The notes beneath the pieces are model-generated. The model saw only the letters and a program-made list of their open reading frames with translations, did no database searches and had not been told where the DNA came from. Shown here piece by piece: positions 45,164 through 52,229 of a DNA stretch of 64,000 nucleotides. The first letter of the stretch is position 1, and each line of letters begins with the position of its first letter. The stretch is from assembly GCA_944362765.1 (NCBI GenBank), contig CALVTP010000003.1, forward strand, positions 1-64,000. The letters are read 5' to 3'. Source of the DNA: an uncultured Clostridia bacterium (GTDB lineage: Bacteria > Bacillota > Clostridia > Christensenellales > DTU072). The position numbers and the translations under genes were made by a program.

Positions 45164-45934
45164 ATGGAAATAAACATATTAGACGCCTTCGGGAGCTTTA
45201 CCGTGGCGTTCCTGACAATTTATGCTGCGGCTATGCCGCTTAACGGAAGCCTTGCGGGAGAGCTTTTCGCGGCGGTTTTAATTGTGCTCGGCAGGGCTGA
45301 CATCCCGTCGTTATCTCCGTTGGTTTTCAGGCTGTCGATGACTTTAAGTGCGCTTTTAGTGGTAAAAAAAGAGTTCGTTTTCAGCGAATTTACACGCCTT
45401 GTCCTAAATTTTATTATAATTTCTCTTGCGGTGTTCGGCGCGGGATTTCTTCGGGAGGAGCTTAACGCTCCCGAAGAGTGGCGCTATGTATTCGAAGGCG
45501 CGGTGCCCGCCGTGACGGCGTTGACTTATGATGCGGGACGGCGGATATCCCGGGAGCGGCTGCACCTCACAGTAGCTTTTCCGACGGAAAACGGCGAAAG
45601 ATTTTTCAAGGGCTTTCTGGACACGGGAAACGGGCTTTATTCGGGCGGCGAACCGGTTATCGTCATATCTGAAAAAGTTGCGGGAAAGCTCGGCATCGAG
45701 CCTGCAGGGGAGATCTATGTCCGCACCGTGGCGGGGATAAAAGCTCTTCCGCTGGGAAGGGCGGAGTATAAGATATATTACGACAAAAATAAACATAAGC
45801 TATACAGTACTCCCGTGGCGATTTCCGATAAAATGGGCTTCGGGCAGGAAGTGCTGCTGCACAGAGACATGATTGAGGCGCTTCAAAAGGAGGACAAATG
45901 CTTAAAATATTCCAAAAATTCAAAGACATTATAA
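45164..45934 (+). CDS. spoIIGA: Pro-sigma-E processing peptidase SpoIIGA
   Basis: This 256-residue membrane aspartic protease cleaves the pro-sequence of sigma E in the mother cell after a forespore signal. The N-terminal ~120 residues contain about five hydrophobic helices. The C-terminal domain carries the catalytic aspartate in GFLDTGNGLY, the motif typical of SpoIIGA. The gene overlaps sigE by 37 nt, the conserved spoIIG order. ATG 45164 has no SD and directly follows a terminator T-run; the initiation mechanism is unclear. Confidence 0.88.
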   Translation: MEINILDAFGSFTVAFLTIYAAAMPLNGSLAGELFAAVLIVLGRADIPSLSPLVFRLSMTLSALLVVKKEFVFSEFTRLVLNFIIISLAVFGAGFLREELNAPEEWRYVFEGAVPAVTALTYDAGRRISRERLHLTVAFPTENGERFFKGFLDTGNGLYSGGEPVIVISEKVAGKLGIEPAGEIYVRTVAGIKALPLGRAEYKIYYDKNKHKLYSTPVAISDKMGFGQEVLLHRDMIEALQKEDKCLKYSKNSKTL

Positions 45935-49112: not shown

Positions 49113-49814
49113 TCAGAACTCCAATTTATCCCTTTTGATGGCGGCGCGGAGTTTTTCCAAAGCCGCTTTTTCTATTCTAGAGACGTAGCTTCTCGAAATA
49201 CCCATGAGTTTTGCCGTTTCCTGCTGCGTTTTTTGGGTTTCGCCGTCCAGACCGAATCGCGCGCGTATCAAAAAACGTTCCCGCTCCGACAGTTGTTCGG
49301 AGACAAGTTTTCCGAGGAGCTCCTTCAAAAAACCTCTCTCGGCGCCTGCCCAGACGGAGTCTTCGTCCACGCTCAGCATGTCTGCCAGCGTGACGTCGCC
49401 TTCCTCGCGGTCGGTTCCCACTTTTTCATAAATGGAGATGTCGTTCCGCCTTTTTTTGTAGCCGCGCATAGCCATCAGAATTTCGTTTTCGATGCAGCGC
49501 GAGGCATATGTCGCAAGCGTCGCCGACTTTTCGGGAGTATAGGAATTGATGGCTTTTATAAGCCCGACAGTGCCGACGGAGACGAGTTCGTCTTTGTCGG
49601 GATAATTGACATACTTTTTTGCGATGTATGCGACAAGTCTCAGATTGTGTTTGACTAGAGCGTCGCGCGCTTCTCTGTCGCCCGCGGCTGCTTTTAAAAG
49701 GAACTCCTTTTCCCTTTCTTTCGAGAGCGGCTGCGGAAAGGAATTGCCGGTGTCTATCCCCGCGGAGAGTATCATAATGTTACTTAAAAGCGCGAAAAAT
49801 CCCTCTAATATCAT
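49113..49814 (-). CDS. sigK: Sporulation sigma factor K (pro-sigma-K)
   Basis: This 233-residue sigma factor drives late mother-cell genes. From ATG 49814 the N-terminus MILEGFFALLSNIMILSAG aligns well with the Bacillus pro-sequence, followed by SFPQPLSKEREKEFLLKAA. Region 2 (NLRLVAYIAKKY, DELVSVGTVGLIKAI, TLATYASRCIENEILMAMR) and region 4 (KTQQETAKLMGISRSYVSRIEK) are intact. The gene is uninterrupted, with no skin-type element. A longer frame to 49931 is rejected. CATATACT lies 6 nt before the ATG, resembling a sigma-E/K -10 box, and no SD is present. Confidence 0.92.
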   Translation of the reverse strand: MILEGFFALLSNIMILSAGIDTGNSFPQPLSKEREKEFLLKAAAGDREARDALVKHNLRLVAYIAKKYVNYPDKDELVSVGTVGLIKAINSYTPEKSATLATYASRCIENEILMAMRGYKKRRNDISIYEKVGTDREEGDVTLADMLSVDEDSVWAGAERGFLKELLGKLVSEQLSERERFLIRARFGLDGETQKTQQETAKLMGISRSYVSRIEKAALEKLRAAIKRDKLEF

Positions 49815-49820
49815 AATTGA

Positions 49821-49828
49821 AGTATATG
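49821..49828 (-). promoter_or_regulatory. Candidate sigma-E/K type -10 box of sigK
   Basis: CATATACT on the minus strand fits the CATAnnnT pattern of sigma E and sigma K -10 elements. Six bases then lead to ATG 49814. A matching -35 was not identified. In Bacillus sigK is transcribed by sigma E and then sigma K. Confidence 0.4.
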
Positions 49829-49942
49829 CCGCGAGGATGGGGAACGTGCGGAATTTGTCGAAAGGAATAACATTTTTCAGGTAACCGTCGTCGCGCATTT
49901 TCGGCGGGGAGTGTCCTCTACGAAAAATCATCCGAAGTTTAT

Positions 49943-49971
49943 TTGCATATTTTCCGGGAGTATGCTATACT
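49943..49971 (+). promoter_or_regulatory. Promoter of the OLE RNA
   Basis: TTGCAT (49943-49948), 17-nt spacer and extended -10 TGcTATACT (hexamer 49966-49971). The predicted start near 49978 lies just before the 5' arm of the RNA's closing stem at 49983. Confidence 0.65.
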
Positions 49972-49977
49972 ATATAC

Positions 49978-50580
49978 AAACTGAATAATGGTGGTGCAGT
50001 ATTCTAGTCAGGTGCGGTACAATCGAAGGCGGGGTTAAAATACCGTTAAAGAGCATATCGATGAAGTTTCTTGTGTTTGCTTACGTTGCCCAAACGTGGG
50101 TTGATGCTGGGAGTTAAGGTTCTTGGGCGACCGATAACGGCATATCGGTGACGACCCAATTACCGTGGAGACCTATATCGGTGGAGGAAGGGCAATATTC
50201 GGCCCGCACTCTACTGAATGGGATTAAACCTGCAATGCGGTACTCAAATGCTGTGTGCAGTGTAGCTTGCCTTGAGTGAAGTCGCGTGAATTAGGGTATC
50301 GGATCGATAAGGGTTCGCGATTCTTGTCGGTCTCTGCTTATGAAACCTTCTTTGCAAAAGAGGATAGATTGTACCTAATCTGTAAAAGAAATTTTCTAGA
50401 CTGTTTTAAGCCGAGGATTATAGTGTGCACTAAGTGGCGATTCGGTTATACGCTGAGTAATCACGGATTGCAGCCCTTAAAAGGAAACTGCTCGGGCGGC
50501 GACGACGAGTGGGCTGTAGGGAAATCCTACCGAACCTGATGGCGCAAGGTTTACTGGGCTTATTGCCACCATTATTCCGT
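49978..50580 (+). ncRNA. ole: OLE RNA (ornate, large, extremophilic RNA)
   Basis: A ~600-nt non-coding stretch begins right after a promoter. Its ends are complementary: GAATAATGGTGG (49983-49994) pairs perfectly with CCACCATTATTC (50566-50577) over 12 bp. Internal stems include ACCGATA / TATCGGT (50130-50149), enclosed by TTGGG / CCCAA (50123-50159). Size, complementary ends, lack of a credible frame and the OapA-like gene 26 nt downstream match OLE RNA, a membrane-associated RNP known from Bacillota and linked to stress tolerance. The neighbouring tlyA-nadK-argR-recN order also fits known OLE loci. The identity is inferred from architecture and context, not from an alignment. Confidence 0.85.
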
Positions 50581-50605
50581 AATAATCTCAATTCTTTTAA
50601 GGGAT

Positions 50606-51508
50606 ATGTCTGAGAATCTGGAAAGCAACAGCCGAACAAAGTTAAACGCCCCGGAAGGGGAGGCAGCTTCGGAGCCTTCTTCCGAAGCCGTTCCGTTATC
50701 TTCGGAAACTTCGAAAACACCTTTGCATGAGGGCGGGGACAAGCCGTTAAGCGACGAAAAGCCCGATAAATCCGACAAAAAGTCACACGAGAAACCCCCT
50801 AAAAAAGGTCTCAAAAAAAGTACGATCTGGACTATCCGCATAACCGTCGTCACGCTGTTTTTAAGCTGCTTTTTCTCGTTTGTATCGGAGCTTGCTTCGA
50901 CGAAGGCGCATTTCAGCATAATGATAATTCTGCTGTTTTTCCTTATTACGCTGTCGATAGCTGCGGACGCGATAGGCGTTGCGGCGACGTCTTGCGACCT
51001 GGCGCCGCTGCTTGCCATGGCGTCCAGAAAGGAACCCGGAAGTAAACAAGCCATTATGCTTGTAAAAAACGCCGAACGCGTCTCCAATATCTGCTGTGAC
51101 GTAATTGGCGATATCTGCAGCATCGTTTCGGGTGCGTGCGCGCTTGCGATAGTCATCAAAATCACAGAGGGCATGAACGAAACGCTGAATATGGTGATAT
51201 CGATACTCGTTTCGGGTATAGTCAGCGCGATGACGGTGGGCGGTAAATCGATGTTCAAAAACGTCGCCGTCAATAACTCCAAGGAGCTTATAATGCTGGC
51301 GGCGCGGTTCATAAGCGTCTTTTCTCCGAAGGACAGAAAGGAAAAAGCCAAACAAAAGCAAAAAGCCATAAAACAGGACAAATCCGACAAGCCTTCCGAC
51401 AAGAACAAGGTTAAATCCGATAATCCCGCAAGACCCGTTTCCGCAGCCGATGAAGACGGCAGGAAAGAGGGCTTGGCGGAGACTGGATCCCGCGGAAATG
51501 AGGCTTGA
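50606..51508 (+). CDS. oapA: OLE RNA-associated membrane protein OapA
   Basis: This 300-residue protein matches the OLE-associated protein family, which binds OLE RNA and holds it at the membrane. Four helices are predicted at about 73-94, 103-127, 160-185 and 194-213. The core has DAIGVAATSCDLAPLLAMAS, KNAERVSNICCDVIGDIC with a DVIGD motif, and the short loop between. Both tails are unusually long and charged: residues 1-72 are rich in Glu, Ser, Asp and Lys, and 240-275 are strongly Lys-rich. The ribosome site is AAGGG, close to ATG 50606. tlyA overlaps the end. Confidence 0.85.
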   Translation: MSENLESNSRTKLNAPEGEAASEPSSEAVPLSSETSKTPLHEGGDKPLSDEKPDKSDKKSHEKPPKKGLKKSTIWTIRITVVTLFLSCFFSFVSELASTKAHFSIMIILLFFLITLSIAADAIGVAATSCDLAPLLAMASRKEPGSKQAIMLVKNAERVSNICCDVIGDICSIVSGACALAIVIKITEGMNETLNMVISILVSGIVSAMTVGGKSMFKNVAVNNSKELIMLAARFISVFSPKDRKEKAKQKQKAIKQDKSDKPSDKNKVKSDNPARPVSAADEDGRKEGLAETGSRGNEA

Positions 51509-52229
51509 CAACTACTTATCCGAAGCGGGGCTTGCAAAAAGCCGTACCCGCGCAAAAAACCTTATTCTGACGGGGAAGGTATCCGTCGACGGCTTGGTCG
51601 TGCGCAAAGCCTCTTTCGAAATTCAGCCCGGACAGTCGGTCTCGGTGAATTCGGAAGAGGATTTTTCTTCTTTGGGCGGAATAAAGCTGAAAAATGCCCT
51701 CGAAAAGTTCAATATTTCTCCCGAAGGCAAGGTTTGTATCGATATCGGCGCTTCGAACGGCGGTTTTACCGACGTCATGCTGAGGGCGGGTGCAAAGAAG
51801 GTTTATTGCGTCGATGTCGGCGAATGCGCTCTTCCTGCGGACATGCTGGCGGACGACAGGGTGGAGGTCAGGGACAGGCTGAACGCGAGATTCATTTCCT
51901 TTGAAGATATCGGCATTCGGGCGGAACTTATCACCGTCGACGTATCGTTTATTTCGTTGAAATTGATTCTTCCGGCGCTTAAACAGTTCATGAACGAGGA
52001 TACCGCTCTCATTGCACTGATAAAACCGCAGTTCGAGGTAGGGAGAGCGTTGCTTTCGAAATCCGGAGTCGTCAAAAATCCCCGCGAAGCCGAAAAAGCC
52101 GTTTCGGAAGTGGTGGCATTTGCCGCCTCGATAGGGCTGAAAGGCTTGGGAGTAGTCGAAATCCCCCGCCTTTTCAAAGACAAAAACCGCGAATATACGG
52201 CGTATTTCAAGCTTCGGAAAGAGGAATAA
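51498..52229 (+). CDS. tlyA: TlyA family rRNA (cytidine-2'-O)-methyltransferase
   Basis: This 243-residue protein joins an S4 RNA-binding domain (MRLDNYLSEAGLAKSRTRAK) to an FtsJ-type SAM methyltransferase domain (VCIDIGASNGGFTDVMLRAG, VDVGECAL, ITVDVSFISL, IKPQFEVG). TlyA proteins methylate ribosomal RNA 2'-hydroxyls. ATG 51498 overlaps oapA by 11 nt; the longer frame from 51450 lacks family similarity. tlyA is the usual neighbour of argR and recN in Bacillota. Confidence 0.9.
   Translation: MRLDNYLSEAGLAKSRTRAKNLILTGKVSVDGLVVRKASFEIQPGQSVSVNSEEDFSSLGGIKLKNALEKFNISPEGKVCIDIGASNGGFTDVMLRAGAKKVYCVDVGECALPADMLADDRVEVRDRLNARFISFEDIGIRAELITVDVSFISLKLILPALKQFMNEDTALIALIKPQFEVGRALLSKSGVVKNPREAEKAVSEVVAFAASIGLKGLGVVEIPRLFKDKNREYTAYFKLRKEE

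Follow-up and report, generated by a model that had tools for sequence, protein, structure and literature searches.

The window, the whole 64-kb stretch of DNA analysed here, carries an OLE RNA followed directly by oapA. Judged from sequence, and with a probability of about 0.7, this is an OLE RNP locus in which the TM2-TM3 loop of OapA is the predicted dock for OLE and the OapA core would be able to work without the RNA. In the proposed mechanism, OLE would close its terminal helix and be kept at the membrane by OapA, a putative four-helix relative of the CNNM metal transporters. The TM2-TM3 loop (residues 134-147, P...MA..K..G.K), on the side of the basic tails, would dock OLE, and D121, the DxxxD motif, K214 and K218 would keep the core functional without RNA, their conservation suggesting an ion path. 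The OLE RNP would tune metal handling by OapA and stress responses, as is known for Halalkalibacterium halodurans, and in some relatives OapA would persist without OLE, its loop decayed.

For almost 20 years the biochemical function of OLE RNA has remained an open question. OapA lineages without OLE would offer a natural experiment on the role of OapA alone versus the contribution of the RNA, and would name a few residues to mutate in the H. halodurans model. These lineages, and the loop that they expose, are the worthwhile lead here, as a prediction based on draft genomes and alignments. This side finding is weightier than one more gut OLE locus and bears on two published ideas: that OLE and OapA may never occur one without the other, and that MpfA takes the place of the OLE machine.

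The OLE locus of the window

The following features were assigned (window positions):

49113-49931, minus strand: sigK-like gene, divergent and upstream of OLE (NF004471); true start probably inside the frame
49943-49948, plus strand: -35-like hexamer TTGCAT; same hexamer with 17-bp spacing in 10/10 same-genus OLE loci
49963-49971, plus strand: extended -10, TGC-TATACT (TATACT at 49966-49971); TGn in 9/10 same-genus loci
49975-50585, plus strand: OLE RNA, span of the Rfam model (RF01071, 433.3 bits, model 1-616 of 616)
49983-49994, plus strand: terminal helix, 5' strand, GAATAATGGTGG, complementary to 50566-50577; inner pairs covary
50498-50503, plus strand: GGCGAC loop of the 3' hairpin, conserved in the OLE model (covariance alignment)
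50566-50577, plus strand: terminal helix, 3' strand, CCACCATTATTC, complementary to 49983-49994
50606-51508, plus strand: oapA, 300 aa, four hydrophobic helices (aligned with 15 relatives, 32-68% identity)
50993-51049, plus strand: oapA codons 130-148, TM2-TM3 loop, predicted OLE dock, decayed in OLE-free OapA
51098-51112, plus strand: oapA codons 165-169, DVIGD, the DxxxD signature (alignment; motif in PMC11332333)
51498-52229, plus strand: tlyA-like gene (TIGR00478, 204 bits against a cut-off of 185.8); start by reading

A preliminary description, made from the letters alone, had proposed an OLE RNA with 12-bp complementary ends and named a covariance search as the check. That search was run, and RF01071 matched significantly on the plus strand (gathering score 50, E 6.5e-124) with the whole model covered. 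A second OLE was found neither in the window nor in the rest of its genome (G000; a 1.71-Mb draft in 68 contigs, 92% completeness) in the covariance search with RF01071. The OLE transcript would be expected to start near 49978. The GGCGAC loop is presumably the end of P13, probably the OapB binding site, an assignment taken from the model alignment. A divergent and enlarged OLE (736 nt, 256 bits) was seen in another genome of the window's family (G018, L194:557-1292).

The complementary ends were present as described, and their pairing was compared across 87 gathered OLE sequences, of which 62 with both anchors were used and 25 dropped, against 200 partner shuffles; the 3' anchor was picked for best pairing, which biases the pair counts upwards. 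The first pair outside GTGG/CCAC formed in 61/62 OLEs (shuffles: mean 52.0, best 55) and the second in 49/62 (mean 23.8, best 34), the latter in all four Watson-Crick types (A-T 13, C-G 13, T-A 12, G-C 10). The third pair formed in 34/62 OLEs against 36 in the best shuffle, and pairing further out drops towards shuffled values, so that the long terminal helix is a feature of the window's lineage. By these counts, pairing of the terminal helix is beyond chance and its inner pairs covary.

The -35 hexamer of the OLE promoter is weak (3/6 matches to TTGACA), and a promoter scan favoured TTTGCA with 18-bp spacing (9/12 matches), returning 5 promoter-like sites against 2.0 expected. The TTGCAT-17 promoter was accepted despite its weak -35 because a TTGCAT-17-TATAAT-like promoter is conserved at all ten same-genus OLE loci; in three further members of the genus, with genomes 60-78% complete, OLE was not found. 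The alignments thus support a housekeeping-type promoter belonging to OLE itself, and the extended -10 promoter of the preliminary description stands. The oapA start lies 21 nt past the OLE model end, adjacent and on the same strand. A terminator scan of 49850-51600 gave 2 terminator-like sites against 2.3 expected and none between OLE and oapA; ole and oapA are likely to share a transcript. The likely start of the tlyA-like gene, chosen by reading, overlaps the 3' end of oapA by 11 bp. Among 30 OLE-locus neighbourhoods, an ispA-like gene was present in 15 and a sigK-like gene in 3. The divergent sigK-like arrangement was confined to the window and two sister species (L018, L025).

The four-helix protein 3' of OLE had been taken for OapA, and the comparisons agree: by alignment and motif, the 300-aa product is OapA. 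Hydropathy peaks lie at about 79-97, 105-123, 166-184 and 194-212, and the DxxxD residues are D165 and D169, a motif given as distinctive of OapA in an excerpt of PMC11332333. The Pfam CNNM model scored 22.4 bits, under its cut-off of 28.4; no CBS or CorC_HlyC domain was matched in Pfam, and there was no NCBIfam match. If the basic tails are cytoplasmic, the TM2-TM3 loop would lie on the same side and would also be cytoplasmic.

OapA genes without OLE

An order-wide sample of 197 genomes (90% completeness requested) was searched for OLE, which was found in 93, and for OapA. The OapA profile matched 120 genomes; four weak hits in frames of 446-468 aa (G068, G080, G153, G161) were MpfA-sized and were removed from the count, leaving 116 genomes, 92 with OLE and 24 without. 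G069 was the sole OLE-positive genome of the 93 without an OapA match; its OLE scored 355.8 bits. OLE-free OapA occurred in 12 genomes of family f6 (G038, G065, G084, G112, G123, G134, G156, G164, G173, G182, G199, G214), in 9 genomes of f26 (G058, G094, G118, G129, G151, G160, G168, G177, G203), in G025 and G033 of the window's own family (f1), and in G040 (f8). The loci of these 24 genomes are L188-L191 and L197-L216.

OLE was not found near any of the 24 oapA genes in permissive covariance searches of 4, 11 and 9 loci; OLE-bearing loci were included in the 4-locus and 9-locus searches and were recovered there, and the 11-locus search ran without a positive control. In G025, G033, G038 and G040 no OLE was found up to E = 10 in a laxer whole-genome search (no positive control), and the other 20 genomes were covered by the strict whole-genome scan, in which few candidates were scored. 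MpfA was considered as the identity of these OapAs and was ruled out by score, size and motif: OLE-free OapAs scored 137-240 bits with the OapA profile, six MpfA-type proteins scored 5-12 bits, and DxxxD was present in 26/26 OLE-free OapA rows.

In f1, f6 and f8 (15 loci) an ispA-like gene precedes oapA by 102 bp or less, with an overlap at one locus whose start is uncertain; the ispA, dxs and tlyA genes beside these oapA genes are presumed such from reading of the ORFs. In f26, 9 of 11 OLE-free loci match the L20 leader, under its gathering score. Two of these loci are second copies in G078 and G140, genomes that each hold one OLE-bound OapA and one OLE-free copy beside the L20-leader-like element (L217, L218 versus L219, L220). 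In a quick tree of 86 OapAs (SH-aLRT only, midpoint root) OLE status has to change about 4 times, and well-supported branches force 3 of these changes; because OLE-OapA pairs are widespread, we infer that the changes are losses of OLE rather than gains.

Of the 60 named loci scanned (60 of 80 kept, of at least 582 found, with a search motif that favours typical OapAs), 59 have OLE immediately upstream of OapA. The 60th, in Anaerofustis stercorihominis DSM 28733 (L110), has OapA, and the roughly 3 kb to each side of it contain no OLE; it was left out of the OLE-free count. According to an excerpt of a 2024 survey, OLE and OapA perhaps never occur independently, and oapA is called exclusive to ole-containing organisms in an excerpt of PMC9723947. 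No report of OLE-free OapA clades was recognised among the papers listed by searches of the open-licence PMC literature (main texts).

Gene co-occurrence was tabulated in 58 neighbouring genomes, 44 of which have OLE. OapA was found in 43/44 OLE-positive and 4/14 OLE-negative genomes, OapB in 40/44 and 12/14, and an L7Ae-family match, which may be OapC or YlxQ, in 39/44 and 8/14. CorC_HlyC (MpfA type) was found in 8/44 OLE-positive and 11/14 OLE-negative genomes (p 7e-5, a guide only, the genomes being related), and in 7/33 and 9/10, respectively, of genomes at least 90% complete. The lower frequency of CorC_HlyC with OLE agrees with the published anticorrelation of OLE and MpfA. A CorC_HlyC gene was also present in 4/4 OLE-free OapA genomes examined for it (of the 24), a result that bears on the published idea of MpfA as a replacement for the OLE machine.

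The TM2-TM3 loop and the tails of OapA

Columns conserved in at least 85% of 103 OLE-positive OapAs were scored, 4 in the TM2-TM3 loop (134, 138, 139, 145) and 20 elsewhere; as columns and sequences are non-independent, the resulting counts are descriptive. The cells kept were:

OLE-positive OapAs (n=103): loop 382/412, elsewhere 1969/2060
20 lowest-scoring OLE-positive OapAs: loop 72/80, elsewhere 378/400
five OLE-positive OapAs of f26: loop 19/20, elsewhere 81/100
OLE-free OapAs of f6: loop 5/48, elsewhere 215/240
OLE-free OapAs of f26: loop 11/44, elsewhere 179/220
three OLE-free OapAs of f1 and f8: loop 6/12, elsewhere 57/60

An independent MAFFT alignment (23 columns) gave 7/48 and 203/228 for f6 and 11/44 and 179/209 for f26; of 8855 possible choices of four columns in it, 5 (f6) and 44 (f26) were as decayed as the loop. 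D121, D165, G168, D169, G176, K214 and K218 were intact in 26/26 OLE-free rows. Decay was also seen outside the loop, at A126 and I170 in OLE-free f6 and at G212 and G213 in OLE-free f26, and the loop column G145 was retained in 10/11 OLE-free f26 rows. In these alignments, the four loop positions decay in OLE-free OapA and most other conserved positions stay. Read with somewhat better than even confidence, these data mean that OapA is viable without OLE: the RNA would have been lost in several lineages, and one family would hold an RNA-free second copy, with loop 134-147 released and the core intact. OapA would then be the transporter itself, with OLE as a detachable regulator that docks on the loop.

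A possible but less favoured explanation is that the loop touches another protein, as in an OapA-OapA or OapA-OapC contact, and is required for this within the OLE complex only, so that OLE loss would release it too. M138 and A139 would be atypical RNA contacts, which counts against an RNA dock, and an L7Ae-family (OapC-type) match was found in 0/4 OLE-free OapA genomes examined (G025, G033, G038, G040); such a match is missing, however, in 5/44 OLE-positive genomes as well. Basic residues moreover go with the loop: position 142 is basic in 98/103 OLE-positive and 8/26 OLE-free OapAs, and position 147 in 92/103 and 11/26, which argues for RNA. A basic cytoplasmic cluster of OapA is speculated to bind OLE in an excerpt of PMC12265935, again against a purely protein contact.

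A reading of the OLE-free OapAs as diverged paralogues that serve another function, in which the loop changed along with the whole protein, is rather unlikely. Their lower scores (137-240 bits) and the second OLE-free copy beside the OLE-bound one in G078 and G140 would fit such an origin, yet equally low-scoring OLE-positive OapAs retain the loop (72/80 cells), DxxxD is intact in all OLE-free rows, and in f1, f6 and f8 oapA is in its usual place, beside ispA and then dxs or tlyA (by reading).

The comparisons point to the TM2-TM3 loop, as predicted dock, rather than to the tails that the preliminary description had singled out as unusually charged, acidic/Ser-rich at the N-terminus and Lys-rich at the C-terminus, and as possible RNA or protein contacts. 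The tails are long, but their net charge is only -1 (N-tail, 74 aa before W75; 13 K/R and 14 D/E in residues 1-74) and +5 (C-tail, 61 aa). The N-tail is indeed acidic/Ser-rich distal to the membrane, but it is Lys-rich near the membrane and neutral overall. Among 154 distinct complete OapAs, with start codons chosen automatically and the window's own counted, an N-tail of this length or more is present in 14 and such a C-tail in 5; the longest N-tail, of 208 residues, is that of G035 (L023:2116-3273). Against the two nearest species (G005, G006) the tails are 41-52% identical and the core 91-92%, and only the Lys-rich stretches beside the membrane look conserved across the three sister species. 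The case for charged tails that add RNA or protein contacts is weak. That the long tails are a special feature adding such contacts, perhaps substituting for OapB, is very improbable: their rarity and the flanking Lys-rich stretches would speak for it, but the distal tails diverge far more than the core, and OapB is present in 10/12 other genomes of the genus, including the long-C-tail sisters G005 and G006.

Host, partner proteins and known systems

The closest named OapAs are those of Candidatus Stercoripulliclostridium merdigallinarum (74% identity) and S. pullicola (63%), a genus named in a chicken-gut metagenome paper (PMC8035907, excerpt). These matches support a gut-associated host close to Candidatus Stercoripulliclostridium, as had been suspected, and its gut origin would imply mesophily. 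The host had also been called a spore former; in keeping with this, the divergent sigK-like gene scored 255.9 bits with NF004471 (cut-off 252), though it fell short of the threshold for the SigK equivalog TIGR02846, and genes at 45898 and 46658 are presumably sigE-like and sigG-like, respectively, from reading of their translations.

An OapC candidate (YbxF, L7Ae family) is encoded before rpsL (25.6 bits against a cut-off of 22.1) and is ordinary in alignment. The idea that weak OapC scores in G000, G005 and G006 are tied to long OapA C-tails was dropped, as the OapCs are ordinary when aligned and the genomes are sisters. A profile built from the map-infA gene found no OapB in the window's genome, and infA was not found there either. 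In relatives oapB sits between map and infA, which in G003 is about 6 kb past rplX, whereas the rplX contig of the window's genome ends about 5 kb past that gene. If gene order is the same, OapB is probably missing because this contig stops before the map-infA site, that is, through an assembly gap. Gene order and this profile overturned a first reading of OapB as absent. The KOW profile PF00467 was tried as an OapB test and rejected, since it missed the map-infA gene in 14 genomes tested; the weak third PF00467 match from the window's genome (L061) falls within what reads as a yajC-like gene, next to a tgt-like one. Surveys using PF00467 would undercount OapB, since it missed the map-infA genes at L062:9039-9308 and L065:6675-6947. 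Of the full OLE system claimed in the preliminary description, OLE, the adjacent oapA and the OapC candidate were recovered, and OapB was not found in a draft that is also without infA; a full system in this genome is nearly shown.

The locus is a further member of the OLE group, and OLE in gut Bacillota was already known. Its OLE resembles that of the TANB77/RF39 gut clades (variants 1 and 2 in an excerpt of PMC11332333) in belonging to uncultured gut Bacillota. It differs in matching the model from end to end, at 433 bits, and in having OapC encoded, whereas those clades have shortened stems and are largely without OapB and OapC in the same excerpt, whose score classes use another model and are not directly applicable to 433.3 bits. 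The membrane domain of OapA is related to that of MpfA/CorB/CorC (CNNM + CBS + CorC_HlyC), with CNNM under cut-off in the window's protein; unlike these, OapA matched neither CBS nor CorC_HlyC and has DxxxD. A close parallel is the OLE RNP of H. halodurans (OapA, OapB/YbzG, OapC/YbxF), shared features being the whole RNA model, oapA directly downstream, DxxxD and the OapC candidate. Unlike H. halodurans, the window's host is gut-associated, its promoter lies beside a divergent sigK-like gene and OapB was not found in the draft; its OapA, at 300 aa with long tails, also contrasts with the protein of about 21 kDa given for H. halodurans in an excerpt of PMC9723947.
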